A DNA stretch of 64,000 nt, taken from positions 40,044 to 104,043 of the forward strand of contig JAEEOO010000057.1 of assembly GCA_016284315.1 (NCBI GenBank), written 5' to 3'. Of this stretch, positions 33,949 to 51,565 are shown piece by piece (the stretch's first letter is position 1; each line of letters opens with the position of its first letter). The position numbers and the translations under genes were made by a program. Under the pieces are notes generated by a model, which searched no databases, was not told where the DNA came from, and saw only the letters and a program-made list of their open reading frames with translations. The DNA is from Lachnospiraceae bacterium. Lineage in GTDB: Bacteria > Bacillota > Clostridia > Lachnospirales > Lachnospiraceae.

Positions 33949-33949
33949 G

Positions 33950-34522
33950 ATGGAAACAAAGAATATCATGATAGTAGGCGTTGGCGGTCAGGGTTCCTTA
34001 CTTGCCAGCAAGATATTGGGACACCTTTTCCTTTCACAGGGATATGATGTAAAGGTTTCGGAAGTTCACGGAATGAGCCAGCGTGGCGGAAGTGTTGTTA
34101 CTTACGTAAGATACGGTGACAAGGTTTATTCACCTGTCATCGATGAGGGTGAGGCTGATTATATAGTTTCTTTCGAGATCCTTGAGGCAGCAAGATGGCT
34201 TCCTTACCTTAAGAAGGAAGGTCAGATCGTTACCAATACCCAGCAGATCGATCCCATGCCCGTTATCACAGGAGCTGCAAAGTATCCTGAGGATCTTGCT
34301 GATAAGATTAAAAATGCAGGTGCGAAGATCGATGCCATCGACTGTCTTGCGAAAGCAAAAGAGGCAGGAAGCGCTAAGGCTGTAAATATTGTCCTTCTCG
34401 GAAGGCTTTCTCATTACTTTGATATTCCCGAGGAGGCCTGGATGGCTTCACTTGAGGCAAATGTCCCCGCAAAGTTTTTGGAGATGAACAAGAAAGCATT
34501 TGAACTTGGCAAGAACGCATAA
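33950..34522 (+). CDS. iorB: Indolepyruvate ferredoxin oxidoreductase, beta subunit
   Basis: NIMIVGVGGQGSLLASKILG; VSEVHGMSQRGGSVVTYVRYG; start 33950. Confidence 0.96.
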   Translation: METKNIMIVGVGGQGSLLASKILGHLFLSQGYDVKVSEVHGMSQRGGSVVTYVRYGDKVYSPVIDEGEADYIVSFEILEAARWLPYLKKEGQIVTNTQQIDPMPVITGAAKYPEDLADKIKNAGAKIDAIDCLAKAKEAGSAKAVNIVLLGRLSHYFDIPEEAWMASLEANVPAKFLEMNKKAFELGKNA

Positions 34523-34589
34523 ATCAAATGTATAACTAACTTGGTTTAGAGGCATAATATTATTACTTATGAAAGGGGTTTTAGGCACC

Positions 34590-35891
34590 ATGGAAAGGTA
34601 CTATCAGGAAGAAATCGAATGTGCGCCTTATGAAAAGATAAGGCAGATTCAGAGCGAAAGACTGGTTCAGCAGGTCAAGAGAGTATGGGATAATGTTCCC
34701 TACTATCGCAAGAAAATGGAAGAGAAGGGCGTGACCCCCGAGGACATTAAGTCGGTGGACGATCTTCACAAGCTTCCCTTTTTATCAAAATATGACCTTC
34801 GCGAAGCATATCCCTACGGACTTCTTGGTAAGCCCTTGTCAGAGTGCGTACGTATCCACTCCACATCCGGAACCACCGGTAAGCGCGTGGTTGCCTATTA
34901 CACACAGCATGATATAGACCTTTGGGAGGACTGCTGCGCAAGAGCCCTTATGGCAGCAGGCGCCACCAATGAAGACGTGGTTCAGGTCGCATACGGTTAC
35001 GGCCTTTTTACAGGCGGTGCGGGACTTCACGGCGGATCTCATAAAGTTGGATCCCTTACCGTTCCCATCAGCTCAGGTAACACCGATCGTCAGATCATGT
35101 TTGCCATGGATCTTTCGGCAACAATCCTTTGCTGCACTCCCAGCTATGCGGCATATCTTGGTGAGCGAATGAAGGAACTGGGCTACGGTCCCGATGACAT
35201 TCCTCTTAAGGCCGGAATCTTCGGCGCGGAGGCATGGAGCGAAGAGATGAGAAAGAGCATCGAGGAGACCCTCGGTATCAAGGCTTATGATATCTATGGT
35301 CTTACCGAACTTTCCGGTCCCGGCGTTGCCTTTGAATGCTCAGCCCAGAGCGGAATGCATATTAATGAAGACCACTTTATCGCAGAGATCATCGATCCTG
35401 ATACAGAGGAAGTCCTTCCTGAAGGAAGCATCGGTGAGCTTGTGTTCACGGCAGTAGATAAAGAGGCCTTTCCTATGATAAGATATAGGACAAGAGATAT
35501 ATGTAAGCTGACCCGTGAAAAGTGCTCCTGTGGAAGAACCCATGTTAAGATGGCTAAGCCCATGGGAAGAAGCGATGATATGCTCATTATCCGTGGCGTA
35601 AACGTATTCCCCAGCCAGATCGAGACAGTTCTTCTAAACAATGGTTACGCAGCAAACTACCAGATCATCGTAGACCGTGTAAACAATACGGATACCTTCG
35701 ATGTACAGGTTGAGATGACTCCCGAGATGTTTACCGATAACATCGGCGAGATCGAGGCACATCAGAGAAAGCTTTCAGACGATCTCAAGGCAATGCTTGG
35801 TATCAAGGCTAAGGTTTCACTTCTTGCTCCCAAGTCTATCGCACGTAGCGAAGGAAAAGCCGTCAGAGTTGTTGATAAGAGAAAAATATAG
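34590..35891 (+). CDS. paaK: Phenylacetate-CoA ligase
   Basis: RIHSTSGTTGKRVVAYYTQHD; YGLTELSGPG; RSDDMLIIRGVNVFPSQIE; start probably 34590. Confidence 0.94.
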   Translation: MERYYQEEIECAPYEKIRQIQSERLVQQVKRVWDNVPYYRKKMEEKGVTPEDIKSVDDLHKLPFLSKYDLREAYPYGLLGKPLSECVRIHSTSGTTGKRVVAYYTQHDIDLWEDCCARALMAAGATNEDVVQVAYGYGLFTGGAGLHGGSHKVGSLTVPISSGNTDRQIMFAMDLSATILCCTPSYAAYLGERMKELGYGPDDIPLKAGIFGAEAWSEEMRKSIEETLGIKAYDIYGLTELSGPGVAFECSAQSGMHINEDHFIAEIIDPDTEEVLPEGSIGELVFTAVDKEAFPMIRYRTRDICKLTREKCSCGRTHVKMAKPMGRSDDMLIIRGVNVFPSQIETVLLNNGYAANYQIIVDRVNNTDTFDVQVEMTPEMFTDNIGEIEAHQRKLSDDLKAMLGIKAKVSLLAPKSIARSEGKAVRVVDKRKI

Positions 35892-35903
35892 GAGGTAAGG
35901 GTT

Positions 35904-36338
35904 ATGTCAGTTAAACAGATTTCAGTTTTCCTGGAGAATAAGCCCGGATCATTAAAAAAGTTGACCGGCGTTCTCGCAGAGCATAAAATAGATATGAGAG
36001 CAATATCTATGGTCGAGACCAGAGATTTCGGTATTGCCAGGATCGTTGTTGACGATCCCTTCACCGCCGCTAATATCCTTAAGGAAGAGGATTTCATCTC
36101 AAAACTTAATTCAGTGCTTGTAGTTGAGATCCCCGATGAGACCGGCGGACTTGATAAGCTTATCAATATCTTTACCGAAGCAGAAGTAAATATTGAATAT
36201 ATGTATGCCGTATCCGCCCACAGGACCACCAAAAAGGCTTGTATGATCTTCCGTGTTGCAGACACCAAGGCTGCGGAAGCAAGGTTATTGGCAAAAGGCT
36301 TGAAGATTCTTACACAGGATGAGGTAATGGACATTTAA
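35904..36338 (+). CDS. Tandem ACT-domain protein
   Basis: VKQISVFLENKPGSLKKLTGVLAEHKIDMRAIS; VVEIPDETGGLDKLINIFTEAEVNIEYMYA. Confidence 0.93.
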   Translation: MSVKQISVFLENKPGSLKKLTGVLAEHKIDMRAISMVETRDFGIARIVVDDPFTAANILKEEDFISKLNSVLVVEIPDETGGLDKLINIFTEAEVNIEYMYAVSAHRTTKKACMIFRVADTKAAEARLLAKGLKILTQDEVMDI

Positions 36339-36368: not shown

Positions 36369-38711
36369 ATGTTTATTAAACAAGGCCCTAATAAAAAGAG
36401 TAAAAAACCATACATACTTAAAGTGCTGTTATATTCTCTTATAATGGCATTTTTCGTATGTGTGGTTTTTATTTATTACAGAAGGCTTTATACCGAAACA
36501 AGACAGAGGGTAATTGACGAAGGAAAGTCTATTGCAGAGGAGTCGGCTTACTACATTGATACCCGTCTTAATGCGGGAGAGACGATCCTTCTCCTTGCGG
36601 CTCATTCCGTCAACAATATGATGGAGAACGGATTCTCCAATGAGGAGATCTATGACTTTTTAGCAAAACAGACAGATTCCATAAGGGAGACACTGGTTAA
36701 GGACAGTACCGGCTTTTACGGATATATTAACGGTGAATTCATGGACGGATCCGGCTGGGTTCCTGAACCGGGTTACGACCCGATGAACAGGCCCTGGTAT
36801 ATTCAGGGGCTGGAAAAAAAGGGTGAGATAGCATATGTGGGCCCGTATCTTGATATGAATACCGGGAACATGATGATCGGTATTGATATTGCTTTAAGCG
36901 ACGGAGTCAGTGTAATGGGTACCGATACGCCCATTATGGATATGCAGCGTAATATCGAAAAACTTGCGGAAGATGAAGATCTATATTCAGATTTCTTGGT
37001 TAATGAGTTGGGGGTGGTCATTGCCCATTCTTTGCCCGAATATATCGGAAGCAACATTTATGATTCCGACAGAGCTCTATTTAAATCCGCAGCAGAGATA
37101 ATAAAGACCAACGGAAGCGGTTATTTCTTCGAAAACAGTGAGGGGCGCCGCCTTGTTTACGTCGTTCCCTTGGACAACGGGTGGAGCTGCGTAACTGTTA
37201 TTGATGCAACCGAGAAATATAATGCTCTTCACAGACCTCTTATATATACCGTGATAGTCCTTATCCTGACCATTGCGATCTATGGTTTTGTCCTCTATCG
37301 CGTTGATAAGAAAAACAGAGAGATTGAGGAATTGTCGGCCAAAGCAAAAGTTGCCGAGGCAGAAAACATGGCAAAGACCGCTTTTCTTTCCAATGTTTCT
37401 CATGAACTTCGTACGCCCTTAAACGCTATCCTCGGAATGAACGAGCTCATTCACAGAAAGACGGAAAAGATCGAGATCCTTTCTTATACCAAAAAGATCA
37501 AGGCATCTTCAGAAAAACTTCTTCACATCATAAACGAGATGCTGGATTTCTCCAAAAAAGAGGTGGGTATCGAGGACTTCTCTTTTGATATCAAGGAGCC
37601 GGAGCCTGAGGAGATCAAGACTGATCCGGCAGAAAACTTTGAGATCAAGTATGAAATGTATCGTGGCGGCTTTACCGCGCCCGATGCAAAGATCCTTGCC
37701 GTTGATGATAACAGCATGAATCTCATAGTATTTGAATCACTTGTTAGGCATACCCTTATGGAGATCGACACTGCCCTCAGCGGAGATGAATGTATAAGGC
37801 TGTCAAGAAAGAAAAAATATGATATTATATATATGGATCATATGATGCCGGGTAAGGATGGCATAGAAACCCTTAAGGAGATAAGAGCGGATAAATACAA
37901 TCCCAATGTTGAGACTCCTGTGGTTTGTATTACAGCCAATGCCGTATCCGGAGTCAGGGACAGTTATATCGAGGCAGGCTTCATTGAGTATCTTACAAAA
38001 CCTGTCAACCCTGATGAACTTGAAGCGACCATAATCAAATACCTTCCGGATGAGCTTTTAAATGAAGCATCGGGAACTTTGCATGAGGAGGACGATAGTG
38101 CCAAGTTCTGCGAAGATCTTAACAAAATGCTTGCAAATGTTCCGGGGGATATGATCGATTCGGAAGCCGGTATCAAGAACAGTGGATCTGTTAAGAGTTA
38201 TATTTCCCTTTTAAAAGTTTTTTACAATACGATCAATGACAAAGTAAGTGAACTTGATTCCTATATTGAAAATGGGGATTATGAGAACTATACCATTAAG
38301 GTACACGCATTAAAAAGTTCGGCAAGGATAATCGGTGCGGCGGGCTTGGGCGAAGAAGCACAGGCTCTTGAAAACGCAGGAAAGAGTGGCGACATCGATT
38401 ATATCAAGGCAAATCACGAGGCCTTTATCGGCGAATACCTTGGATTTGGAGCAATACTCTCCAAAGCCTTTCCCGAGGAGAAAGAAGACGATAAGCGTAA
38501 GCCTGAGGCTGATGCCGAACTGATGGATATCGTATACATGGAGATCAAGTCTGCGGCACAGGATATGAACTGTGGCAGGCTGGAAGAAATATTCAAAAAG
38601 ATGGGAGAATACCGAATCCCCGAAGAGGAGAAAGAAGTATTCTCAAAGATTAAGACAGCATCCGACAATTATGACTATGACAAGATCATAGAATGTTTGA
38701 CGGAGGCTTAA
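36369..38711 (+). CDS. Cache-HisKA-REC-Hpt hybrid protein lacking a HATPase domain
   Basis: Cache-like sensor between 2 TM; FLSNVSHELRTPLNAILGMNEL (H box); REC ILAVDDNSMN...IYMDHMMPGKDG; Hpt HALKSSARIIGA; no N/G1/G2 boxes. Confidence 0.9.
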   Translation: MFIKQGPNKKSKKPYILKVLLYSLIMAFFVCVVFIYYRRLYTETRQRVIDEGKSIAEESAYYIDTRLNAGETILLLAAHSVNNMMENGFSNEEIYDFLAKQTDSIRETLVKDSTGFYGYINGEFMDGSGWVPEPGYDPMNRPWYIQGLEKKGEIAYVGPYLDMNTGNMMIGIDIALSDGVSVMGTDTPIMDMQRNIEKLAEDEDLYSDFLVNELGVVIAHSLPEYIGSNIYDSDRALFKSAAEIIKTNGSGYFFENSEGRRLVYVVPLDNGWSCVTVIDATEKYNALHRPLIYTVIVLILTIAIYGFVLYRVDKKNREIEELSAKAKVAEAENMAKTAFLSNVSHELRTPLNAILGMNELIHRKTEKIEILSYTKKIKASSEKLLHIINEMLDFSKKEVGIEDFSFDIKEPEPEEIKTDPAENFEIKYEMYRGGFTAPDAKILAVDDNSMNLIVFESLVRHTLMEIDTALSGDECIRLSRKKKYDIIYMDHMMPGKDGIETLKEIRADKYNPNVETPVVCITANAVSGVRDSYIEAGFIEYLTKPVNPDELEATIIKYLPDELLNEASGTLHEEDDSAKFCEDLNKMLANVPGDMIDSEAGIKNSGSVKSYISLLKVFYNTINDKVSELDSYIENGDYENYTIKVHALKSSARIIGAAGLGEEAQALENAGKSGDIDYIKANHEAFIGEYLGFGAILSKAFPEEKEDDKRKPEADAELMDIVYMEIKSAAQDMNCGRLEEIFKKMGEYRIPEEEKEVFSKIKTASDNYDYDKIIECLTEA

Positions 38712-38752: not shown

Positions 38753-40093
38753 ATGGACTATTGGGTAGTGGCAGTTGATGATGAGGCCATGTGCCTTACC
38801 AATGTAAGACAAATATTGTCATCGGCGGGAATGAAGGTCAGCTGCTTAAGATCGGGACAGGATCTTCTTAAGTTTATTGAGAAGAATACACCTGACCTTA
38901 TACTTCTTGATCTTAATATGCCCGGAATGGACGGTTTTGAGACCTTCCATGCCCTTAGGGAACTGGAAGATCAGGGCATGCACCGTCATATCCCCGTTAT
39001 CTTCCTTACAGGAGATAACAATGCCTACGCCGAGAGACGTGGCCTTAAGGTCGGAGCATCTGACTTTATAAGAAAGCCCTTTAACCAGGATGTTCTTCTT
39101 GGCCGAATAAGGAATGCCATTGAGAACCAGAAGAAGATCGAAAGCCTGACGGAAGAGGCTATGTACGATAAGCTCACAGGCTTCTTGAACAAGGCAAACG
39201 GAAGTAAGAGAATCGCGGATCTCTGTGCTGCAAAGAGCGGAGCAATGCTTGTTCTTGACCTTGATAATTTCAAACTTGTCAACGATCTTTTCGGACATGA
39301 TATGGGCGATAAAGTACTTGAAGCTTTTGCTGAGATCGTAAGGCATAACACAAGGGAAGAAGATGTTATATCAAGGATCGGTGGCGACGAATTCCTTGGA
39401 TTCTTTGAGAATATAGGCGCAGTGGATGCGGTTGAATCTTTGACTAAAAGACTTAATGAATCTTTGTTTGAAAAGTGCAAGGAGCTTATGGGTGAATTCT
39501 TTGATGTCCCCATAGGAATATCCATTGGTGCGGTTTTTGTACCGGATCACGGCAAGGACTTCACAGAGCTTTTCCAAAACGCAGACAACTGTCTTTACAG
39601 GGCAAAACAAAACGGAAAGCACGGATTTGTTATCCATGTTCCGGATAAGATGGAAAGCGTCCCTGAGGATGACCTTACAAGGGAACTCAACAGGGTAACC
39701 CGTCTTGTGGAAGAACGTTGTGCAAGAGGAGCGCTGCTCCTTGGTCAGGAAGCATTTACTTTTAATTACCGTTTTATATTAAGGTTCATGCAAAGATATA
39801 ACGGCTGCGCCAACAGGCTTCTCTTTTCCGTCGAGGAGATAAACAAGGAAGATGACTGTTTGGCTGAGGCGGTTAATGCTTTTGGAAAAATACTTCAGAG
39901 TACGCTCAGAAGAAGCGACATTATTTTTCATAACAAATCGAATCAGTATTACCTGCTTTTACCGGGGCTTGCCGGTGACGACACACATGTTGTTGTGGAA
40001 AGAGTTATGCAAAACTGGGAGAAAACCGAATTTGCGGATCGTGTAAGAATTAAGCATGTCTTTTCTGCTATTACCTTTGAAGAAAAGGAATAA
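38753..40093 (+). CDS. REC-GGDEF (PleD-like) with additional C-terminal degenerate GGDEF-like region
   Basis: VVAVDDEAM...LILLDLNMPGMDG; SRIGGDEFLGFF; C-terminal FGKILQSTLRRSDIIFHNKSNQYYLLLPG. Confidence 0.9.
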   Translation: MDYWVVAVDDEAMCLTNVRQILSSAGMKVSCLRSGQDLLKFIEKNTPDLILLDLNMPGMDGFETFHALRELEDQGMHRHIPVIFLTGDNNAYAERRGLKVGASDFIRKPFNQDVLLGRIRNAIENQKKIESLTEEAMYDKLTGFLNKANGSKRIADLCAAKSGAMLVLDLDNFKLVNDLFGHDMGDKVLEAFAEIVRHNTREEDVISRIGGDEFLGFFENIGAVDAVESLTKRLNESLFEKCKELMGEFFDVPIGISIGAVFVPDHGKDFTELFQNADNCLYRAKQNGKHGFVIHVPDKMESVPEDDLTRELNRVTRLVEERCARGALLLGQEAFTFNYRFILRFMQRYNGCANRLLFSVEEINKEDDCLAEAVNAFGKILQSTLRRSDIIFHNKSNQYYLLLPGLAGDDTHVVVERVMQNWEKTEFADRVRIKHVFSAITFEEKE

Positions 40094-40113: not shown

Positions 40114-42168
40114 ATGGAACGCTCGAGGAACGAAAAGTTTGTTGTCTTTATAACATCCATAGCAGGACTGGGACTGGCATTGGAAACAGTCCTTATGGAC
40201 TGGGAATGGTGGGCTATTCCACTTATAGCGGCAGGAACCATCGCTCTTTGGATCATGAATCTGAGGGAGAAACCGGATGTTAACACAAGAGTGGTCTGCT
40301 TTTATTTGTATGCAATGCTGACCTTCTTTTTCCACGGAGTCCATGAGACCGGCTTTTTTGATGTGTCCATCGTGGCGACTCTGGGCCTTGTTGTGTATTC
40401 CTTTCTTTACAAAAAATACGTCATTCATCTTTTATTCACCGAGTATTTCCTTATAATGTTCATACAGTTCTACTTTGCTATCACAGCAAAGAATATCGTG
40501 TTTGACACCCTTGCGGTATCAAGGCTTGTGCTTCATGTGGCTATAGTTGTAGTCATTTATTTCTGTTGTCTTCGAAAGATCACAGACAGACTTTCAAAAG
40601 AAAGATCCGAGGAAGAAAAGGATATCCGTCTTGAGAGTTATGAAACGGATATGGAAGATTTCCTTTCAAATATTTCCCATGAATTAAGAACACCCGTAAA
40701 CGTGGTTAACGGTATGTCCGATCTTTTGCTGAAAAGAGACGTGGGTTACGAAGCAGACGCTATTAAAAGGGCAGGTATTAGGCTTGCCAGCCAGATAGAA
40801 GATATTCAGGATTATACCGAATGTAAGAGGGGAAAGATCCTTCTGGAAGAAGAGGATTACATGACCACATCCCTTATCACCGACGTGGTCATGAGTTTCA
40901 GGAGAGGTGAAAACGAAAGGGAACTTGAACTTGTTGTGGACCTTGATCCCAGGGTTCCCGCAATGCTCAGGGGAGATATCAAAAAGATTCGCAAGATCTT
41001 CAGGCACCTTCTTGAGAATGCCCAGAAGTTCACATACAAAGGCGGTATCCTTGTAAGGATGTACTCGGAAAAAACAGATTACGGGGTTAACCTTTGCATA
41101 GAGATAACGGACACCGGAATCGGAATGGACAGAAAGACCATTGAGTCTGTTTCCGAGGGAATGTACCAGGCAAATAAAAAGAGAAATCGTAATTCAGGCG
41201 GAATAGGTCTGGGTCTTTTTATCGTTTACGGATTTGCTCACAGGATGGGTGGCTTTGTAAAGATCGAAAGCAGGAAGAACAGCGGTTCAACCATCAGGGT
41301 AACTCTGCCCCAAAAGGTTGTAAATGATGCCGCTTGTCTTGAAGTAACGGGTGGAGTAAAGGGAGATCTTCTTTTCCATGTAAGATCCAACAAGTATAAA
41401 GTACCTGCTGTAAGAGAATTCTACAGGACCATGGCCGTCAATCTGGCAACCGGTATCCATGCGTCTTTGTATGCTGCTGAGACCATCAGCGATATCGAGA
41501 GACTTCAGAAGAAATTGAACGTTAGATATATATTCATGGGCCAGGAGGAGTACGAGGACAATCCCAAATTCTTTGACGAGGTCAGCAAAGGAAATATCGT
41601 TGTCGGTGTGTCTGCGTTACCCGGATTTAAGCCTAATCCCGGAAGCCGTGTCATGATCATGCCTAAGCCTTTGTACGCATATCCTGTTATCAAGATCCTT
41701 AACGAGGGTCTTGAGGCTAAGAATATCGAGTCACCCGTTACCAATATAAGGCCTGTATTTAGAGGAATCAGGGCTCTTGTTGTTGACGATGAGCCCATGA
41801 ACCTTGTTGTAGCTTCCGGACTCTTCAGGGATTATGAGATGATCGTGGATACTGCGGGAAGCGGAAAAGAAGCAATCCTTAAGTTCCAGGTCAATGATTA
41901 CGACGTTATTTTTATGGATCATATGATGCCCGAAATGGATGGCGTTGAAGCCATGCATATCCTTAAGAAGATGTCGGTTGAACTCCACAAAAAGGCTGTA
42001 GTTGTTGCTCTTACCGCCAATGTTGTTTCCGGAGCAAAGGAAATGTTTATGCAGGAGGGCTTCGACGGATTTATTTCCAAGCCCATTTATATACCGGATT
42101 TTGAGAGAACCATGCTTAAAGTCCTTCCCGGTTTTGTAAATGAACAGGAAGGAGGTAAGGCAGAGTGA
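40114..42168 (+). CDS. Membrane hybrid histidine kinase with pseudo-receiver and C-terminal receiver
   Basis: FLSNISHELRTPVNVVNGM; ITDTGIGM; GGIGLGLFIV; REC ALVVDDEPMN...IFMDHMMPEMDG. Confidence 0.93.
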   Translation: MERSRNEKFVVFITSIAGLGLALETVLMDWEWWAIPLIAAGTIALWIMNLREKPDVNTRVVCFYLYAMLTFFFHGVHETGFFDVSIVATLGLVVYSFLYKKYVIHLLFTEYFLIMFIQFYFAITAKNIVFDTLAVSRLVLHVAIVVVIYFCCLRKITDRLSKERSEEEKDIRLESYETDMEDFLSNISHELRTPVNVVNGMSDLLLKRDVGYEADAIKRAGIRLASQIEDIQDYTECKRGKILLEEEDYMTTSLITDVVMSFRRGENERELELVVDLDPRVPAMLRGDIKKIRKIFRHLLENAQKFTYKGGILVRMYSEKTDYGVNLCIEITDTGIGMDRKTIESVSEGMYQANKKRNRNSGGIGLGLFIVYGFAHRMGGFVKIESRKNSGSTIRVTLPQKVVNDAACLEVTGGVKGDLLFHVRSNKYKVPAVREFYRTMAVNLATGIHASLYAAETISDIERLQKKLNVRYIFMGQEEYEDNPKFFDEVSKGNIVVGVSALPGFKPNPGSRVMIMPKPLYAYPVIKILNEGLEAKNIESPVTNIRPVFRGIRALVVDDEPMNLVVASGLFRDYEMIVDTAGSGKEAILKFQVNDYDVIFMDHMMPEMDGVEAMHILKKMSVELHKKAVVVALTANVVSGAKEMFMQEGFDGFISKPIYIPDFERTMLKVLPGFVNEQEGGKAE

Positions 42169-45100
42169 TCAGAAGATTTTTCAGGCTCATCATCAATATT
42201 GTAAGAGATTATAACAGAGACCTTACCGAGCGTGTATTTGTTGTGTTTACGCTTATTTCCGAAGCCACACTTTTGGCAGCTCTTATCGGGGATATCCTCA
42301 TAGGTGAAAACCTTATTGAGATCATCATCCTGGCCGTCACTGCGGTATGCGTACCTTTTATTACAACGATATGCATTGTTAAAGATAAATTGAAACTGGC
42401 GACAGGCATAATCGTTGTATGCCTTGTGGCTCTTATATTGCCGGGAATATTTATTTTCGGCGGCGGTACTCATGGCGGCGGAGTACTTTGGTTTTTCTTT
42501 GCTTTCATGTATATCGGTCTTGTTTTGTCCGGAAAGTGGAGAACCGTCATGCTGGCGCTTTTACACATCGTTGCCGCTGCATGCTTTACTCTTGAGTTCC
42601 TGCATCCCGAGTTGATCAATGTACATACTCATGAAATGTTTATCATCGACTCCTTTATCTCATTGCTTCTTGTGGGAGTTGTTTGTTTCTTCATGTCCTG
42701 GTTTCAGAGTTATCTGCTGAAGGCAGAGAACGAGCGCGCAAAGAAAGAGACGGAGAGAGCCGAGGAACTTTCACTTTCCCAGAACCGTTTCTTCTCAAGT
42801 ATGAGCCATGAGATCAGGACACCCATTAACTCCATTCTCGGACTTAATGAGCTGATCTTAAGGGATCCCAATGCTACCGAGGAGATAGCAAAGGACGCTT
42901 CAGGTATCCAGGGTGCAGGTAAGATGCTCCTTGCCCTTATCAATGATATCCTTGACTTTTCAAAGATTGAAGCCGGAAGCATGGATATAGTTCCCGTTGA
43001 CTATCGTGTTGGTGATATGATCTCCGAGATCGTCAACATGATCTGGCTTCGTGCCAATGACAAGGGACTTAAGTTTGAGGTAAATATCGATCCTACCGTG
43101 CCTTCCATTCTGTACGGAGACGAGGTCAGGATAAAACAGATCATAATAAACCTTCTTAACAATGCGGTTAAATACACTCAGGAAGGTAGCGTTGAACTCT
43201 ATATCGAGAGAGAAGACACCGATGGCGATGAGGTTATTCTTGGCATTTCGGTCATTGATACCGGAATGGGAATCAAGAAGGAAAACATCCCCCATCTTTT
43301 TGATGCATTTAAGCGTGTTGATGAAGAGAAGAACAGATATATTGAGGGAAGCGGACTTGGCCTCAGTATCGTAAAGCAGCTGGTTGATCTTATGGGCGGA
43401 ACCATAACCGTGAACAGTGTATATGGTGAGGGTACTACTTTTAATGTCCTTATCAGGCAGGGTGTTTCCAATACCGCTGAGATCGGTGAACTTAATATCC
43501 ATAGTTCAAGCACCGGAAACAGAAGCCGTTATGAGGCAGGATTCAAGGCACCTGAGGCAAGGATACTGATCGTAGACGACAACGAGATGAACCTTAAGGT
43601 TGAGGCAAGACTTCTCAAGGATACGGGCATGACCATCGATACCGTTAAGAGTGGCAGGGAAGCCCTTGATATGACTGTAAGGAACAGATATGACGTTATC
43701 CTTATGGACCATCTCATGCCCGAGATGGATGGAATTGAGTGCCTTAAGGCCGTAAGAAATCAGGCGGGTGGTATGAACAGGACCTCACCCATCATCGCCC
43801 TTACTGCAAATGCAGGAAGTGACAGCAGGGAGCTTTACAACCATTCGGGATTTGACGGATATCTGGTTAAGCCCGTTTCCGGTGATGGACTTGAAGAGAC
43901 CCTTATTAAGCATATTTCTTCCGACAAGCTTACTTTGAGCGGAAGAACCGCTAACATGAGAGAGGATATAAAAACATCCGATGGTTATTCCGGAAAGGCT
44001 CAGGTTGTCATTACATCCTCAAGTATGTGCGACCTTCCCGACAGGGTTATCAAGAAGCTTAATATTCCAATCATTCCTTTCCGTGTTCGCACAGAGGAAG
44101 GTATATTTAAAGACGGTCTTCAGATGACATCCCATGAGCTTTTGAGCTATATGGATTCAGGTAAAAAAGCCATTTCATCCCCTCCGGATGAAGAGGCCTT
44201 TACCGAGTTCTTTGCAAGCTCACTTAAAAAGGCTCACAACCTTATCCATATCTCCATTTCCGGCGATATAAGTAAGGAGTACCGCATTGCAACCGAGGCT
44301 GCAAAGTCTTTTGATAATGTTATTGTTATTAACTCCGGATCTTTGTCTTCCGCTACGGGACTGATGGTTCTGGTAGCTCATAAGCTTGCTCAGCAGAACC
44401 TTTCCGTTCCCGAGATAGTTGAGGAACTTGAAAAGGTAAAGAAGAGTGTCCGTTGCAGCTTTGTAATGGATACTACGGAATATATGGAAAAGCATGGCCT
44501 GGTAAGTCATTTTGTAACATGGTTTACCAAGACCTTAAATCTGCACCCCTGCGTTCGTGTAAAGAAGGACCATACCGGTCTCGGAGGAGTGTGGCTGGGC
44601 TCTACTATGCGAGCTTATAAGAGATACATATCCTATGCCCTTCCCTTTAATGTTCCGCCGGATCCCGATGTAGTATTTGTTACATACGCGGATGTTCCGG
44701 TAGAGACCTTGAAGTGGTTCAGGGAAGAAATGCTGAAGGTTTCCCATTTTGAGCATATTATTTATAAACAGGCTTCTGCTGCTATCTCTTCAAACTGCGG
44801 TCCCGGAACCATAGGTATTTTGTATCTGGAGAAATCCGAAAAGTCCTATAACCTCAGTTCCTTTATTGAGGATGAGAAGCTTGAATATGATGTAATGGAA
44901 GAAAATGAGCTCATGGCAGAAGGAATGAGCGAGGCCGACTTTGATTTTGCTGAGGAGGAAGCGGATGTAAATCGTCCCTGGTACTGCAAGATCGGATTTA
45001 TAGATGGTGATGTCGCGATTCGAAACAGCGGATCGGAAGAGTCCTTTAAGACGGTTCTTAAGATTTTCTACGAGTCCATTGAAGAAAAAGCCAATGAACT

Positions 45101-45581
45101 TGAAGAGTTCTTTAATGATGGCGACTGGCAAAACTTTACCATCAAGGTTCATGCACTTAAGAGCTCTGCTAAGCTCATCGGTGCGGTGGATTTCTCTGAG
45201 CGCGCCCTTGAACTTGAAATGGCGGGAAAAGAAGCCAATATTGCTATCATCAGAGATAAGGCAAGGGATTTCCTTTCTGATTACAGGCACTTTGCAGATG
45301 AACTCTCCGTATTATTCGGATGTGAGATCCCTGAAAATGTTATAACAACTAAGGAAAAGCCGGTTGCAGATAAATATATTTTGGAAAGTGTCTACGAAGG
45401 TCTTCGTGAAGCAGCGGAAAACATGAGCTGCGACGGCATAGAGGACATCCTTAAGGAAATAGCGGATTACAGGATCCCGGATGAGGACGAGGTTAAGCTG
45501 AAAGCCATAAAGGAAATGTCGGATCAGTTTGACTATGATGCGATTTTGGAGATCCTTGGTGTGGATCCTACCATTGTGTGA
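42165..45581 (+). CDS. Hybrid histidine kinase: TM-HisKA-HATPase-REC-DegV-Hpt (GTG start, 4-bp overlap with upstream gene)
   Basis: FFSSMSHEIRTPINSIL, DTGMGI, GSGLGLSI, ILIVDDNEMN...ILMDHLMPEMDG; DegV VVITSSSMCDLPDRVIKKLNIPIIPFRVRTEEGIFKDGLQMT...; Hpt HALKSSAKLIGA. Confidence 0.93.
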   Translation: MIRRFFRLIINIVRDYNRDLTERVFVVFTLISEATLLAALIGDILIGENLIEIIILAVTAVCVPFITTICIVKDKLKLATGIIVVCLVALILPGIFIFGGGTHGGGVLWFFFAFMYIGLVLSGKWRTVMLALLHIVAAACFTLEFLHPELINVHTHEMFIIDSFISLLLVGVVCFFMSWFQSYLLKAENERAKKETERAEELSLSQNRFFSSMSHEIRTPINSILGLNELILRDPNATEEIAKDASGIQGAGKMLLALINDILDFSKIEAGSMDIVPVDYRVGDMISEIVNMIWLRANDKGLKFEVNIDPTVPSILYGDEVRIKQIIINLLNNAVKYTQEGSVELYIEREDTDGDEVILGISVIDTGMGIKKENIPHLFDAFKRVDEEKNRYIEGSGLGLSIVKQLVDLMGGTITVNSVYGEGTTFNVLIRQGVSNTAEIGELNIHSSSTGNRSRYEAGFKAPEARILIVDDNEMNLKVEARLLKDTGMTIDTVKSGREALDMTVRNRYDVILMDHLMPEMDGIECLKAVRNQAGGMNRTSPIIALTANAGSDSRELYNHSGFDGYLVKPVSGDGLEETLIKHISSDKLTLSGRTANMREDIKTSDGYSGKAQVVITSSSMCDLPDRVIKKLNIPIIPFRVRTEEGIFKDGLQMTSHELLSYMDSGKKAISSPPDEEAFTEFFASSLKKAHNLIHISISGDISKEYRIATEAAKSFDNVIVINSGSLSSATGLMVLVAHKLAQQNLSVPEIVEELEKVKKSVRCSFVMDTTEYMEKHGLVSHFVTWFTKTLNLHPCVRVKKDHTGLGGVWLGSTMRAYKRYISYALPFNVPPDPDVVFVTYADVPVETLKWFREEMLKVSHFEHIIYKQASAAISSNCGPGTIGILYLEKSEKSYNLSSFIEDEKLEYDVMEENELMAEGMSEADFDFAEEEADVNRPWYCKIGFIDGDVAIRNSGSEESFKTVLKIFYESIEEKANELEEFFNDGDWQNFTIKVHALKSSAKLIGAVDFSERALELEMAGKEANIAIIRDKARDFLSDYRHFADELSVLFGCEIPENVITTKEKPVADKYILESVYEGLREAAENMSCDGIEDILKEIADYRIPDEDEVKLKAIKEMSDQFDYDAILEILGVDPTIV

Positions 45582-45635
45582 TGAATTATATGAAAAATGA
45601 AAGTATAATAATTTGTGACTCGGAGGGTTAGGGAA

Positions 45636-46412
45636 ATGAGTGCTGATAAGAATATTGCTATTGTAATGTTTCAGTACAGCGTCGTTGCGAAAGGAATAGA
45701 GAAAAAGCTTACAGACCTGGGATATCATGTAGATATCATCTCGGACGGCTTTGACAGGATGAAGACCTTTGTATCAAGTATTGGACTTTTCATGTTCTAT
45801 CTTTCCGAGGATATAACAGGAGATTTCAAAAAAACCAGACTTCTTTTTGATATGATGAACACAATCGGTGAAGCCGGGTGTAAAATGATATCCATTGGTG
45901 AGGAGAAATTCAGGTCAAATTATTTTAAGGAAGTTCCTGAAATAAGGAATTATGTATGGCTCAACAGACCTCTTAACTTAGACCAGCTGGGAGCTGTAGT
46001 AGAAGGAGTTTTGAGCGGAGAACTGGTGGGCGGCCACAGCAAGCGTATTCTTATTGTGGATGATGACCCTTCCTATGCAAAGATCGTCAGGGAATGGATC
46101 AAGGATGATTACAGAGTGGATATTGTCAACGCCGGATTACAGGCCATGACATTTCTTCTTAAGAACGGCCAGGACAATCCCGTTGATCTTATTTTGTTGG
46201 ACTACGAAATGCCGGTTTTGGATGGTGCCCAGGTACTTCAGCTTTTAAGGCAGGAGCTGGTCACAAGGAATATTCCGGTTGTCTTTCTTACCGGTAACGG
46301 AACAAAGGAAGCAGTTGCAAAGGTCATGGCTCTTAAGCCCAGCGGTTATATCTTAAAGACCACCGGAAAGGAAGCCCTTCTTGAATATTTGAGAAATAAG
46401 TTAGGAAATTAG
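45636..46412 (+). CDS. Response regulator: N-terminal pseudo-receiver + C-terminal REC, no output domain
   Basis: RILIVDDDPSYAKIV...LILLDYEMPVLDG...VVFLTGN...GYILKT; start revised to MSADKN. Confidence 0.88.
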   Translation: MSADKNIAIVMFQYSVVAKGIEKKLTDLGYHVDIISDGFDRMKTFVSSIGLFMFYLSEDITGDFKKTRLLFDMMNTIGEAGCKMISIGEEKFRSNYFKEVPEIRNYVWLNRPLNLDQLGAVVEGVLSGELVGGHSKRILIVDDDPSYAKIVREWIKDDYRVDIVNAGLQAMTFLLKNGQDNPVDLILLDYEMPVLDGAQVLQLLRQELVTRNIPVVFLTGNGTKEAVAKVMALKPSGYILKTTGKEALLEYLRNKLGN

Positions 46413-46417
46413 TTTTT

Positions 46418-46894
46418 ATGGCAAGGATCATTAATTCAACCCTCGTACATCTTATTAAGGACGGGAAGTATCTCATGCTCCACCGAACCAAGAAAGAGGG
46501 AGATTACAACAAAGATAAATGGATAGGAGTGGGAGGAAAGCTTGAACCGCAGGAATCCCCTGAGGAATGTGCAAAGCGTGAGACCTTGGAGGAAACGGGG
46601 CTCACAATGAATTCTATGGACTATCGCGGTATCGTAACCTTTGTTTACGAGGACATTACCGAGTATATGCATCTTTTTACTTCCGAGGATTTTTCGGGAG
46701 AGATGAAAACCTGCGATGAGGGAGACCTTGAGTGGGTGGAAATCTCAAAGGTATGCGATCTTCCCATTTGGGAAGGGGATAAGATCTTCTTTAAGCTTAT
46801 GGAAGATAAGGAAAAAAACCCTTTCTTTTCTGTTAAACTTGTGTACAATGATGAGGGGGAACTTATCAGCCATGAAGAAAATATTTATAATTGA
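46418..46894 (+). CDS. NUDIX hydrolase, MutT/8-oxo-dGTP diphosphatase type
   Basis: GGKLEPQESPEECAKRETLEETGL Nudix box. Confidence 0.93.
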   Translation: MARIINSTLVHLIKDGKYLMLHRTKKEGDYNKDKWIGVGGKLEPQESPEECAKRETLEETGLTMNSMDYRGIVTFVYEDITEYMHLFTSEDFSGEMKTCDEGDLEWVEISKVCDLPIWEGDKIFFKLMEDKEKNPFFSVKLVYNDEGELISHEENIYN

Positions 46895-47537
46895 AGATGA
46901 ACCGGGAATACGTGATGAGCTGGTGATACTTCTTTCAAGTTCGGGATACGAGGCCCTTTGCCTTGAGGAATTTGAAAATGTATCATCAGCTATATTGTCG
47001 TGTGCTCCCGATATGGTGCTTCTTGATATCAATCTGCCTTTTAAAAACGGTAAAGATGTTTTAAAAGAGCTTAGGCAAAAGTCCGATGTCCCCGTTATCA
47101 TGGTGACAAGCTCCGATGCGGAAAGAGATGAACTTATATCCATCGGTTACGGAGCGGATGACTATATAACAAAGCCATACAATCCTACTTTGCTTTTGCT
47201 GAGGATCGGAAATATCTTTAAGAGGCTTGGTGGGAACTCTGATGAGGTACAGTATAGGGATTTAAAGATAGATTTCAGGCGAAGCGTCATTGTGGACAGG
47301 TGCGGGAATGAGACAGTGCTTTCAAAGAACGAGATGCTGATCCTGTCGTATATGTATCATCATAGAGGCAATATCGTAAGCCGTGATGACCTTATGACGG
47401 ATCTTTGGAACAATAGTGAGTATTTAAACGACAATGCCCTTACGGTGAACATCAGCCGCCTCAGAGGAAAGCTTTCCGAGGCCGGCGTCGGCGACGCCAT
47501 TGAAACCCGCAAAGGACAGGGGTACTTGATGCAGTGA
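46872..47537 (+). CDS. OmpR-family response regulator, BceR-like
   Basis: MKKIFIIEDEPGIRDELVILL...MVLLDINLPFKNG; winged-helix C-terminus; overlaps NUDIX gene by 23 bp. Confidence 0.92.
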   Translation: MKKIFIIEDEPGIRDELVILLSSSGYEALCLEEFENVSSAILSCAPDMVLLDINLPFKNGKDVLKELRQKSDVPVIMVTSSDAERDELISIGYGADDYITKPYNPTLLLLRIGNIFKRLGGNSDEVQYRDLKIDFRRSVIVDRCGNETVLSKNEMLILSYMYHHRGNIVSRDDLMTDLWNNSEYLNDNALTVNISRLRGKLSEAGVGDAIETRKGQGYLMQ

Positions 47538-47539
47538 GA

Positions 47540-47559
47540 TTTGGCACCCGGGTGCCAAA
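47540..47559. repeat. 20-bp perfect palindrome between RR and HK genes
   Basis: TTTGGCACCCGGGTGCCAAA. Confidence 0.95.
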
Positions 47560-47578
47560 CCCCAGATAGGATATACAT

Positions 47579-48634
47579 ATGTCTTTCGGAAAGTATATTA
47601 AAGACAAAATTATAAATATTTTGATAGCCGTACTCCTTCTTGCTGCGGTGGTGGGGATCCTTCTGATCTTTCGCCTTAACCCCGTGGCTTTATGCCTTGT
47701 GGCAGGACTCATGGTGATCGCTTTTGTGGCGTCCTTTTTATATGACTATTTCAGGAAAAAAGGATTCTACGATTCACTTGCCAAAAACGTAGAAAGAATG
47801 GACAAGGCCTATCTTGTCCTCGAGACCTTGCAGGAGCCGGCTTTTTATGAAGGTAAGCTGATTTACGATACCCTTTACGACATAGACAAATCCATGGCTG
47901 ACAATGTGGGTATCTACAAAAAGCAAAGTAAGGAATTCGCGGAATATATCGAGATGTGGATCCATGAGGTAAAGCTACCTTTATCCGCCATCAGCCTTAA
48001 GCTTCATAACCTTGTGAAGCTTAGGAACGAATATACCGATGAATACAAAAAGCTTCTGGCAGAGACTAGGCGCATTGAAGAGTATGTAAATCAGGTTCTT
48101 TATTTTGTGCGCTCAGAGAATGCGGAAAAGGATTATCACATTTCAAGCGTGGCTGTCTCTGATATCATTCATGATGCGGCCATGACCTACCGTGATACGG
48201 TTCGGGATAACGGAATAGAATTTGTTATCGGTAAGGATGAAGCCGGCATCGAGAATCCCGAGAACGTCTTTGTTAATACCGATAGAAAGTGGCTTTTGTT
48301 CATCATGGGCCAGTTTATATCAAACAGTATTAAATACAGGAAAAGTGGAGAAGACTCCTTTATCAGGGTATATGCGGATAAGAAGGATGGCAGCAGGGAC
48401 GTTTTGCTCTGCGTAGAAGATAACGGCCTAGGAATCCCCACTGCGGATCAAACAAGGATATTTGAAAAATCCTTTACAGGGTCAAACGGAAAACTTAGGA
48501 CAGGCTCTACCGGAATGGGGCTTTATATCGTGAAAGAACTCTGCGAAAAACTGGGGCATGAAATAAATGTAGACTCTCGGGAAGGCGAATTTACAAGGCT
48601 TTCGGTAACATTACAAAACTGTAATATTAAGTAA
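47579..48634 (+). CDS. BceS-like intramembrane-sensing histidine kinase
   Basis: Two adjacent TM helices; WIHEVKLPLSAISLKLHNL; VEDNGLGIP; GSTGMGLYIV. Confidence 0.9.
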   Translation: MSFGKYIKDKIINILIAVLLLAAVVGILLIFRLNPVALCLVAGLMVIAFVASFLYDYFRKKGFYDSLAKNVERMDKAYLVLETLQEPAFYEGKLIYDTLYDIDKSMADNVGIYKKQSKEFAEYIEMWIHEVKLPLSAISLKLHNLVKLRNEYTDEYKKLLAETRRIEEYVNQVLYFVRSENAEKDYHISSVAVSDIIHDAAMTYRDTVRDNGIEFVIGKDEAGIENPENVFVNTDRKWLLFIMGQFISNSIKYRKSGEDSFIRVYADKKDGSRDVLLCVEDNGLGIPTADQTRIFEKSFTGSNGKLRTGSTGMGLYIVKELCEKLGHEINVDSREGEFTRLSVTLQNCNIK

Positions 48635-48650
48635 TATTGGAAAAACGACA

Positions 48651-48733
48651 ACCTCTTTTTTATGGTTTATCATCTGTATTGTAAACGGGATCTGCGCAGT
48701 CCCGAAACAAAAGCCATAAGAAAGAGGTAGTTT
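48651..48733 (+). promoter_or_regulatory. Long hairpin leader / attenuator candidate upstream of ABC genes
   Basis: ACCTCTTTTTTATGGTTT ... AAGCCATAAGAAAGAGGT with inner CGGGA-...-TCCCG, followed by TTTTT. Confidence 0.6.
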
Positions 48734-48750
48734 TTAAATCAGGTGAGATT

Positions 48751-49518
48751 ATGAGCGAAATACTTAAGATTGATAACATTGAAAAATATTACGGAAGCAA
48801 GTCTTCTTTGACAAAGGCACTGGACGGTGTTTCATTTAACGTTTACGAAGGCGAATTCGTTGCCATCATGGGAGCCAGCGGAAGCGGTAAGACAACCCTT
48901 CTTAACTGCATCTCAACGATTGACAAGGTTTCATCCGGACACATTACCGTTGACGGAACCGACATTACAAAGCTTAAAGGAAATGCACTTAACAAGTTTA
49001 GGCGTGATGAACTTGGATTCATCTTCCAGGATTTCAACCTTCTTGATACCATGACTGCTTACGAAAACATTGCCCTTGCACTTTCCATTAAGGGAGTTTC
49101 TGCATGGGTCATTGATAAGAAGATCAAGGAGATCGCTGAGTCCCTTGGCATTACAGAGGTTTTGAACAAGTATCCTTATCAGATGTCAGGAGGCCAGAAA
49201 CAGCGTATCGCCGCAGCGAGAGCCATCATTACAGAGCCCAAGCTTGTTCTTGCGGATGAGCCTACCGGAGCTCTTGATTCAAAGTCATCAAAGATGCTTC
49301 TTGAAAGTTTCAAGTATTTGAACGAAGAGATCCCCGCTACCATCCTTATGGTAACCCACGATGCTTTTTCTGCATCCTATGCAAAGCGCGTTATCTTTAT
49401 CAAGGACGGAAAGATCTTTAACGAGATCATCAAGGGAGACAGATCAAGAAAGGAATTCTTTACCGAGATCATCAGCGTTATTTCATTGTTAGGAGGTGAC
49501 GCGGGCGATGCTGTTTAA
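48751..49518 (+). CDS. BceA-like ABC transporter ATP-binding protein
   Basis: GASGSGKTTLLNCI Walker A; MSGGQKQRIAAARAI; LVLADEPTGALD. Confidence 0.95.
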   Translation: MSEILKIDNIEKYYGSKSSLTKALDGVSFNVYEGEFVAIMGASGSGKTTLLNCISTIDKVSSGHITVDGTDITKLKGNALNKFRRDELGFIFQDFNLLDTMTAYENIALALSIKGVSAWVIDKKIKEIAESLGITEVLNKYPYQMSGGQKQRIAAARAIITEPKLVLADEPTGALDSKSSKMLLESFKYLNEEIPATILMVTHDAFSASYAKRVIFIKDGKIFNEIIKGDRSRKEFFTEIISVISLLGGDAGDAV

Positions 49519-51565
49519 GTTAGCTTTTAAAAATATCAGGAAAAGTATAAAGGATTATGCCATTTACTTTTTGACTTTGCTTATCGGCGTTATTATTTTC
49601 TATGTTTTTAACGCCATTGAAACCCAGACTGCAATGATGAATGTTCAGAAGTCAACTTATGACATCATTCAGCTTATGAATTCCTTTCTTAGCGGCGTCA
49701 GCGTCTTTGTTGCAATTGTTCTCGGAGCCTTGATCGTTTACGCCAGCAACTTCCTCATTAAGCGAAGGAACAAGGAGTTTGGCATTTATTTAACCCTTGG
49801 AATGAGCAAGGGAAGAATGTCCGCAATCCTTTTTGTTGAGACTTTACTGGTTGGCGTGATTTCACTGATACTGGGTCTTGGCCTCGGCGTTGTTCTTTCT
49901 CAGTTTATGAGTATTGTTGTATCAAATATTTTCGAGGCGGACATGACGGGATTCAGGTTTGTTTTTTCCATGGCAGCAGCCGTAAAGACCTGCATTTACT
50001 TTGGAATCATGTACCTTGTTTCAATGCTCTTTAACGCTATCAGCATCAGCAGATGCAAGCTTATTGACCTGCTTCATGCCAACAAAAAGAGCGAGAAGTT
50101 AAAGCTTAGAAATCCCATTCTTTGCCTTATTATTTTCATCGCAGCATGGGTGATCCTGGGGGTGTGCTATTATCTCGTAAATGTAAAGATCAATGAGATA
50201 AGCCCAAGAAAAGATATGCCTATTATTATTGTTGCGGGATGCATTGCTACATTCCTTGTTTTCTGGTCGATTTCGGGAAGTATTTTAACTGTTGCAAGGG
50301 CAATGAAAAAGCTTTATTACAGAAAGCTCAACAGCTTTACCTTCAGACAGTTCAGCTCCAAGGCCAACACCATGGTTATATCCATGAGCCTTATTTGCCT
50401 CATGCTCTTTTTGACAATCACCATGCTTGGAAGCTCCATCAGCCTTTCAAGATCGATGAATAAGAATATTAGGGAACTAGCACCCTGCGATGCGATTTTT
50501 GTAAAGCCTTTAGGAATCACAGGATCTCTTTATGGTGGAGATAATCCTTATGCCGATGCCCTTAAGGAAGATGCAAAGAAGCCTATTATACAGTCACTTA
50601 ACGAGGGTGGAGTGGATTGTTCTTTATTTGACGAGACTACAACCGCTTTTTACTACGACTGCCTCGGACTCAACATGGACAAGACCCTTGGGGAGAATTT
50701 AAAGCCTGCTCTTGGAATGTATATGTTTATTGCGCCCGACTCCTTTGAAGGAATCATGACGGAGTCTGATTACAACAAGGTAGCCCACGTTTTCGGAGCT
50801 GAGGAAGTAACCCTTGGTAAGAATGAATACGCCATGGTAGCAAACCTTGAAATTATGATCAAAATCAGAAGTGAGGTAATGGAAAGCGGACGTGAGCTTG
50901 AATATAACGGATTTACATTAAAGCCTGCTTACGACAGATGCCTTGAGGGAAGTGTATTTATGTCTGAGACAAGAAGCAATGAAGGCGTTATCGTTGTTCC
51001 GGATGAGGCTGTTTCAGGGGTAAACAAGACAAAAGAAATCCTTTATGTGGACTATGCTGCCATGAGCAGACAGGAGCTTTTGGACTATGATGAAAAAATA
51101 GTTGAGCAGATGAATTCGATTCATTATATTTCGACCACGACAAGCGTTGACACTAGGGAGGGACTTAAGAGAGATTCCGTAGGTCTCGGAGCTACCCTTA
51201 CCTTCATCAGCCTTTACATCGGAATTGTTTTTCTTATTGCCAGCGCAGCGATTATCTCCCTTAAGGAGGTTTCGGAGAGTACCGACAATATCGAGAGATT
51301 CGCAGTACTCAGACGCATCGGAACCGATGAGCACATGATTGATATGGCGCTCTTTAAGCAGATTGGAATGTTCTTCCTCTTCCCCATAACCGTTGCGGCC
51401 ATTCATTCGGTCTTTGGCCTCAACATGGTTAAGAAGATTTTTGAAAGCTTCGGAATGGGAAGCCTCGGAATTCCTCTTTTGATCACCGCAATCATTATCG
51501 TTGCCGTATACGGAGGCTATTTCCTTCTTACCTACGCAACAGGAAGAAGAATAATAAAAGGATAG
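49508..51565 (+). CDS. BceB-like FtsX-family ABC permease
   Basis: LAFKNIRKSIKDYAIYFLTLLIGVIIFYVFNAIE; large extracytoplasmic domain; about 10 TM. Confidence 0.92.
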   Translation: MLFKLAFKNIRKSIKDYAIYFLTLLIGVIIFYVFNAIETQTAMMNVQKSTYDIIQLMNSFLSGVSVFVAIVLGALIVYASNFLIKRRNKEFGIYLTLGMSKGRMSAILFVETLLVGVISLILGLGLGVVLSQFMSIVVSNIFEADMTGFRFVFSMAAAVKTCIYFGIMYLVSMLFNAISISRCKLIDLLHANKKSEKLKLRNPILCLIIFIAAWVILGVCYYLVNVKINEISPRKDMPIIIVAGCIATFLVFWSISGSILTVARAMKKLYYRKLNSFTFRQFSSKANTMVISMSLICLMLFLTITMLGSSISLSRSMNKNIRELAPCDAIFVKPLGITGSLYGGDNPYADALKEDAKKPIIQSLNEGGVDCSLFDETTTAFYYDCLGLNMDKTLGENLKPALGMYMFIAPDSFEGIMTESDYNKVAHVFGAEEVTLGKNEYAMVANLEIMIKIRSEVMESGRELEYNGFTLKPAYDRCLEGSVFMSETRSNEGVIVVPDEAVSGVNKTKEILYVDYAAMSRQELLDYDEKIVEQMNSIHYISTTTSVDTREGLKRDSVGLGATLTFISLYIGIVFLIASAAIISLKEVSESTDNIERFAVLRRIGTDEHMIDMALFKQIGMFFLFPITVAAIHSVFGLNMVKKIFESFGMGSLGIPLLITAIIIVAVYGGYFLLTYATGRRIIKG

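Follow-up and report, generated by a model that had tools for sequence, protein, structure and literature searches.

DegV proteins are common and are mostly understood just as FakB carriers, and the locus described here poses the question of what a domain of this family does when it is built into a histidine kinase. The locus lies in a stretch of 64,000 nucleotides (the window) from a Lachnospiraceae bacterium (assembly GCA_016284315.1, contig JAEEOO010000057.1, positions 40,044-104,043 of the forward strand). The original prediction, made from the letters of the window, was that one uninterrupted frame joins kinase, receiver, DegV and Hpt domains, and that the resulting protein could couple fatty-acid status to a phosphorelay. 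No paper describing a DegV-kinase fusion was found in the part of the literature that was covered. The component parts are of kinds already known; the new points are that these domains are combined, that the combination is conserved, that Fak residues have been lost from it, and that two kinases share one Hpt as a rule.

Translation of window positions 42165-45581 (+) gives a single GTG-started frame, free of stops throughout. Pfam matches in it, all scoring over their curated cut-offs, follow the order foreseen: HisKA, HATPase_c, Response_reg, DegV, Hpt. The protein and its parts are:

42165..45581, + strand: DegV hybrid histidine kinase, TM-HisKA-HATPase-REC-DegV-Hpt-C-terminal module, 1138 aa
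42165..42734, + strand: N-terminal membrane region, modelled with about six helices; resembles MASE7 weakly, scoring under the cut-off
42780..42977, + strand: HisKA, aa 206-271, H-box SMSHEIRTP (Pfam)
43116..43454, + strand: HATPase_c, aa 318-430 (Pfam)
43563..43901, + strand: receiver (Response_reg), aa 467-579, phosphoacceptor D515 (Pfam)
44007..44831, + strand: DegV/FakB-fold domain, aa 615-889 (Pfam, fold match, residue alignment)
45054..45239, + strand: Hpt, aa 964-1025, HALKSS phosphohistidine motif (Pfam)
45345..45578, + strand: C-terminal module beyond Hpt, common to the neighbouring Cache protein

Across 35 homologues the SHEIRTP of the HisKA domain does not vary, and the key N-, G1- and G2-box residues of HATPase_c and the Asp and Lys residues of REC are likewise invariant; the HALK motif is present in 77/77 Hpt-type proteins of a second set. 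In a full-length model every domain is folded, and low-confidence linkers (aa 595-609 and 905-935) flank the DegV domain; the pTM of this model is 0.42, and the relative placement of the domains is therefore not to be interpreted. The order HisKA-HATPase-REC-Hpt is the same as in BarA, TorS and ArcB, but these kinases have no DegV module and the matches of the DegV kinase fall far under their curated cut-offs.

The DegV domain matches PF02645 with 135.1 bits against a cut-off of 27 (E 3.9e-39, profile positions 3-279 of 280) and exceeds the cut-off of the NCBIfam DegV family TIGR00762 (143.5 vs 99.7 bits); the limits given in the original prediction, 43998-44846, agree with the Pfam match at 44007-44831. 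Searched alone, the segment matches 22 solved DegV/FakB sequences, the best being 2dt8 (9.4e-20). The comparison with FakB structures that had been suggested gave the same answer: an AlphaFold2 model of the segment, built with 38 homologues, has a mean pLDDT of 91.7 and a pTM of 0.89, and in Foldseek it matches 2dt8, 1pzx and 4x9x at E values of about 1e-25 to 1e-24 with TM-scores by target of 0.86-0.88 (2dt8: E 2.1e-25, 0.86); the top fold matches are DegV proteins that bind fatty acids. A search for viral relatives in BFVD gave no match at E <= 0.001. The prediction of a genuine DegV/FakB fold joined covalently to phosphorelay domains is thereby confirmed.

Among 299 genera of the family, the full form of 1115-1160 aa was found in ten genomes (about 10 genera), and in the window's own genus the Hpt form is present in 8/31 genomes. 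A shorter HK-REC-DegV form of 890-920 aa is more widespread, occurring in several dozen genomes as judged by open-frame length; in 40 fetched stretches it reads TM-HK-REC-DegV, with the DegV domain at the C-terminal end. Among the matches listed in a class-wide draw, kinase-sized DegV frames outside the family came from two genomes of one other family. Open frames of roughly 600 aa with DegV matches also occur in other families of the class (G411:C71, G364:C229 and G457:C13). A scan of public genomes gave 80 loci, almost all from rumen Lachnospiraceae, and the cultured isolates Butyrivibrio sp. XPD2002, VCD2006 and NC2007 carry the same architecture. A frameshift or assembly error that fused separate genes, which together with a missing DegV match or fold had been named as a way in which the prediction could fail, is thus of negligible probability, because the architecture recurs in tens of independent genomes, isolates included. 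In a phylogenetic tree the kinase-fused DegVs form one clade separate from the stand-alone DegVs (support 100), and the branch between the two measures 1.18 changes per column.

Whether the fused domain could still work as FakB was judged from residues of known function. In FakB1 of the fatty acid kinase, Thr62, Ser95, Ser171 and His270 form one network with the carboxylate, Arg173 is needed for the Fak kinase reaction, and Arg205 serves in docking on FakA and the membrane (PMC8892158, PMC9136124). The FakB1 residues were placed by the motifs TSQP, LSGTY, GGRIS and AHTGPG, and the Arg205 position was taken as the Arg two places past the end of strand 9 in stand-alone DegVs; the alignment included S. 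aureus FakB2 (4x9x) and not FakB1, and the published neighbouring residues fit the placement by motif. In the window the correspondences are T62 to S671, S95 to S703, R173 to L779, R205 to L811, and H270 to N877. All 89 Hpt-type domains have Ser or Thr at position 62, Ser95, and Asn in place of His270. His270 is lost in 115/116 fused domains (kept in 1/26 of the non-Hpt type) and Arg205 is absent from the same proportion, 115/116, with R in 1/89 Hpt-type and 0/26 non-Hpt domains. Arg173 is absent from 82/89 Hpt-type domains (present in 7/89) and present in 17/26 non-Hpt domains. Among stand-alone or PDB DegVs (n=10), Arg173 is found in 10/10, Arg205 in 7/10 and His270 in 8/10. An NCGPG motif is conserved throughout the fused set. 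A Trp in the window at the FakB1 Trp180 position was considered and dropped, as it is not conserved among relatives.

By these residues the fused domains have lost the Fak interface, while the head-group site is partly constant, and a direct link to FakA-type presentation, which the original prediction mentions as background, is not supported. That the fused DegV is nevertheless a working FakB, delivering fatty acid to FakA so that acyl-phosphate flux is sensed as a by-product, is very improbable. The genome does encode FakA: of its two Dak2 proteins, one has Dak2, FakA_M and FakA_C domains and adjoins a stand-alone DegV, and Arg173 survives in most non-Hpt forms; but the arginine required for FakA docking (PMC9136124) is missing from the fused set save for one domain, Arg173 is Leu in the window, and the five stand-alone DegVs of the genome (the one beside FakA and four others) are available for that role. 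Since FakA and stand-alone DegVs are encoded separately, the fused module is additional to an ordinary Fak system and does not replace it.

The carboxylate site, as read from the alignment, appears conserved but altered, and not decaying, with the hydroxyls kept and the His-to-Asn change uniform. Replacement of His270, a member of the FakB1 carboxylate network, means that the ligand type may differ or that binding may be lost. The second outcome would make the DegV domain a ligand-free scaffold or spacer holding HK2 (the partner kinase described below), the receiver and the Hpt, its lipid binding having gone with the Fak residues. The loss of Arg205, Arg173 and His270 and the long branch that splits fused from stand-alone DegVs speak for such a scaffold, as does the position of the domain, which adjoins the Hpt or occupies the C-terminal slot where an Hpt would be. 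However, the hydroxyls at positions 62 and 95 and the NCGPG motif are conserved in the fused set, which is unexpected in a dead pocket, and the complete FakB fold is retained; we consider the scaffold unlikely, although well within reason. We favor a domain that still binds a ligand: the fused DegV probably lets the cell read internal lipid instead of feeding the fatty acid kinase. The existence of a large kinase-fused DegV branch without the FakA interface suggests a distinct use in lipid sensing.

Immediately upstream of the DegV kinase lies the gene of another hybrid kinase, HK2, and both stand within a group of signalling genes:

36369..38711, + strand: Cache-HisKA-REC-Hpt protein without a HATPase domain
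38753..40093, + strand: REC-GGDEF response regulator with a second, degenerate GGDEF-like part
40114..42168, + strand: HK2, hybrid kinase TM-HisKA-HATPase-REC, without Hpt, overlapping the DegV kinase by 4 nt
45615..46412, + strand: response-regulator-like protein, N-terminal half unassigned, C-terminal REC

The exact 4-nt overlap is seen in 66/103 pairs, the window included. Exactly one partner bears an Hpt in 101/103 HK2/DegV-kinase pairs. In the 95 pairs with a full-length HK2, the Hpt is on the DegV kinase in 74, on HK2 in 21, and never on both, and six more pairs with short HK2 frames conform to the same rule; the pairs are interrelated, so that their count does not equal a count of events. 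Two pairs are apparent exceptions: at L083 the gene is split and the Hpt lies in the frame that follows immediately, and the L118 locus is broken. In a concatenated tree of the kinase pairs the Hpt position switched at least 2 times, one clade being rejected (AU p 1.7e-8); the DegV-only tree does not reject a single clade (p 0.26). The idea that the DegV protein acquired its Hpt just once is thus rejected by the kinase-pair tree, but the second origin is one genome (L074) on a long branch. That genome encodes a free-standing DegV-Hpt protein of 414 aa (L074 7887-9131, -); its gene comes after a lone hybrid kinase, which it overlaps, and a REC-GGDEF gene is next in line, an arrangement not found in 29 congeners. 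The Hpt-to-end stretch of the window protein is 41% identical to that of the neighbouring Cache protein, which makes this neighbour, and not HK2, the probable source of the Hpt, by copying. In HK2 itself, about 150 aa between HATPase and REC (aa ~402-554) have no Pfam match and look by eye like a degenerate receiver. The HATPase-less Cache-HisKA-REC-Hpt protein lies beside the DegV-kinase pair at nine loci (the window, L083, L085, L093, L101, L107, L118, L129 and L130), and relatives of about 930 aa retain HATPase; the short form may depend on a partner for its phosphorylation.

The output of the relay may involve c-di-GMP. The REC-GGDEF protein of the window has, by eye, an intact GGDEF motif and an RxxD I-site. 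REC-GGDEF genes lie near 34/90 Hpt-type loci, and relatives of the small response-regulator-like protein adjoin 65/90 Hpt-type DegV kinases, many loci in both counts ending at contig edges. In the non-Hpt cassettes the first gene is often REC-HD-GYP, REC-GGDEF or REC-GGDEF-REC-HD-GYP. One genome from the genus of the window also has a REC-GGDEF-REC-HD-GYP gene, with both cyclase and phosphodiesterase domains, adjoining the kinase pair (L070 1406-3784). Genomes of this kind commonly contain GGDEF genes; we regard the c-di-GMP link of the kinase pair as suggestive but not as established. Within the window no c-di-GMP riboswitch was found; the same search gave a single tRNA.

Downstream of the Hpt-type loci a Na+/alanine symporter is frequent (59/88), which could point to amino acids instead of lipids, and a DUF6976 protein follows 34/88; both are found at L081 (11016-13509), for example. 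On this ground, and on the uniform His-to-Asn change of the Hpt type, the ligand of the DegV domain might be some metabolite other than a fatty acid, such as an amino acid, with Asn270 reflecting a changed head-group specificity. We consider a ligand of this kind rather improbable: none of the 28 non-Hpt loci has the symporter, nor does the window, and every matched solved DegV relative that names a ligand names fatty acids or lipid. The DUF6976 protein, too, is absent from the 28 non-Hpt loci and from downstream of the window's kinase.

Returning to lipid as the signal, we propose that HK2 and the DegV kinase, which are encoded together, would be halves of one phosphorelay with a single Hpt in common, and that the DegV module, a diverged FakB fold placed between receiver and Hpt, would most likely take up a fatty acid, or a lipid like it, out of the cytosol or the inner leaflet of the membrane. 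The loaded or the empty module would alter REC-to-Hpt transfer or kinase output, and phosphate would pass through the common Hpt to nearby response regulators, whose predicted outputs are often those of diguanylate cyclases (REC-GGDEF, as in the window) or phosphodiesterases (REC-HD-GYP). A lipid-responsive module gating a two-kinase, one-Hpt relay is the explanation that we prefer, with the case for it about evenly balanced. The fuller reading, in which the DegV/FakB-fold domain serves rumen and gut Lachnospiraceae as an integral sensor of intracellular fatty acids, in a conserved two-kinase relay controlling c-di-GMP, is put forward tentatively, as somewhat more doubtful than even. Of the originally suggested coupling between fatty-acid status and phosphorelay, the presence of a DegV fold in a relay protein has held, and the coupling itself, still a proposal, is strengthened by the kinase pairing and the frequent c-di-GMP regulators.

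The closest working parallel is RpfC/RpfG of the Xanthomonas DSF system. RpfC, a five-TM hybrid kinase that contains REC and Hpt, is activated by a fatty acid, and the cognate RpfG is a REC-HD-GYP c-di-GMP phosphodiesterase (PMC5391125). Many non-Hpt cassettes, with HK2 and REC-HD-GYP, have the same layout, whereas the nearby regulator in the window is REC-GGDEF. The DSF-binding sensor of RpfC is an N-terminal stretch of 22 aa, and RpfC has neither a DegV domain nor a second kinase; in the system described here a DegV fold is present on a second kinase, and diguanylate cyclases are frequent as the nearby regulator. The SaeRS two-component system of Staphylococcus aureus is modulated by intracellular free fatty acid (PMC5539427), but it has no fused DegV, and the effect is exerted via the free fatty acid pool that Fak keeps low. 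The fused DegV shares with FakB its fold, its length and the two hydroxyls, T62/S95, at the carboxylate site (PMC8892158), and differs from it in being fused into a kinase, in lacking Arg205 and (in the Hpt type) usually Arg173, and in having Asn for His270.

A lipid sensor might be sensible in this niche, since unsaturated fatty acids are toxic to Butyrivibrio: under them, growth of Butyrivibrio fibrisolvens is delayed until biohydrogenation (PMC2836310). If relatives of this species do have a lipid sensor built in, it would offer a direct clue to the way in which the cells notice fatty-acid stress and, if the proposal is true, DegV proteins would gain a signalling role outside the fatty acid kinase. 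The rule of one Hpt per pair offers a clean, testable case of one phosphotransfer domain serving two hybrid kinases.

Other genes of the window were noted in passing. Upstream, consecutive indolepyruvate ferredoxin oxidoreductase-like, AMP-ligase and double ACT-domain genes occupy 32191-36338, and a GGDEF protein with a periplasmic-binding-protein-like sugar-binding domain lies at 28713-30560. Downstream, at 46716-51565, an OmpR-type regulator, a small SapS-like kinase, an ABC ATPase and an FtsX permease make up a BceRS-BceAB-like module.
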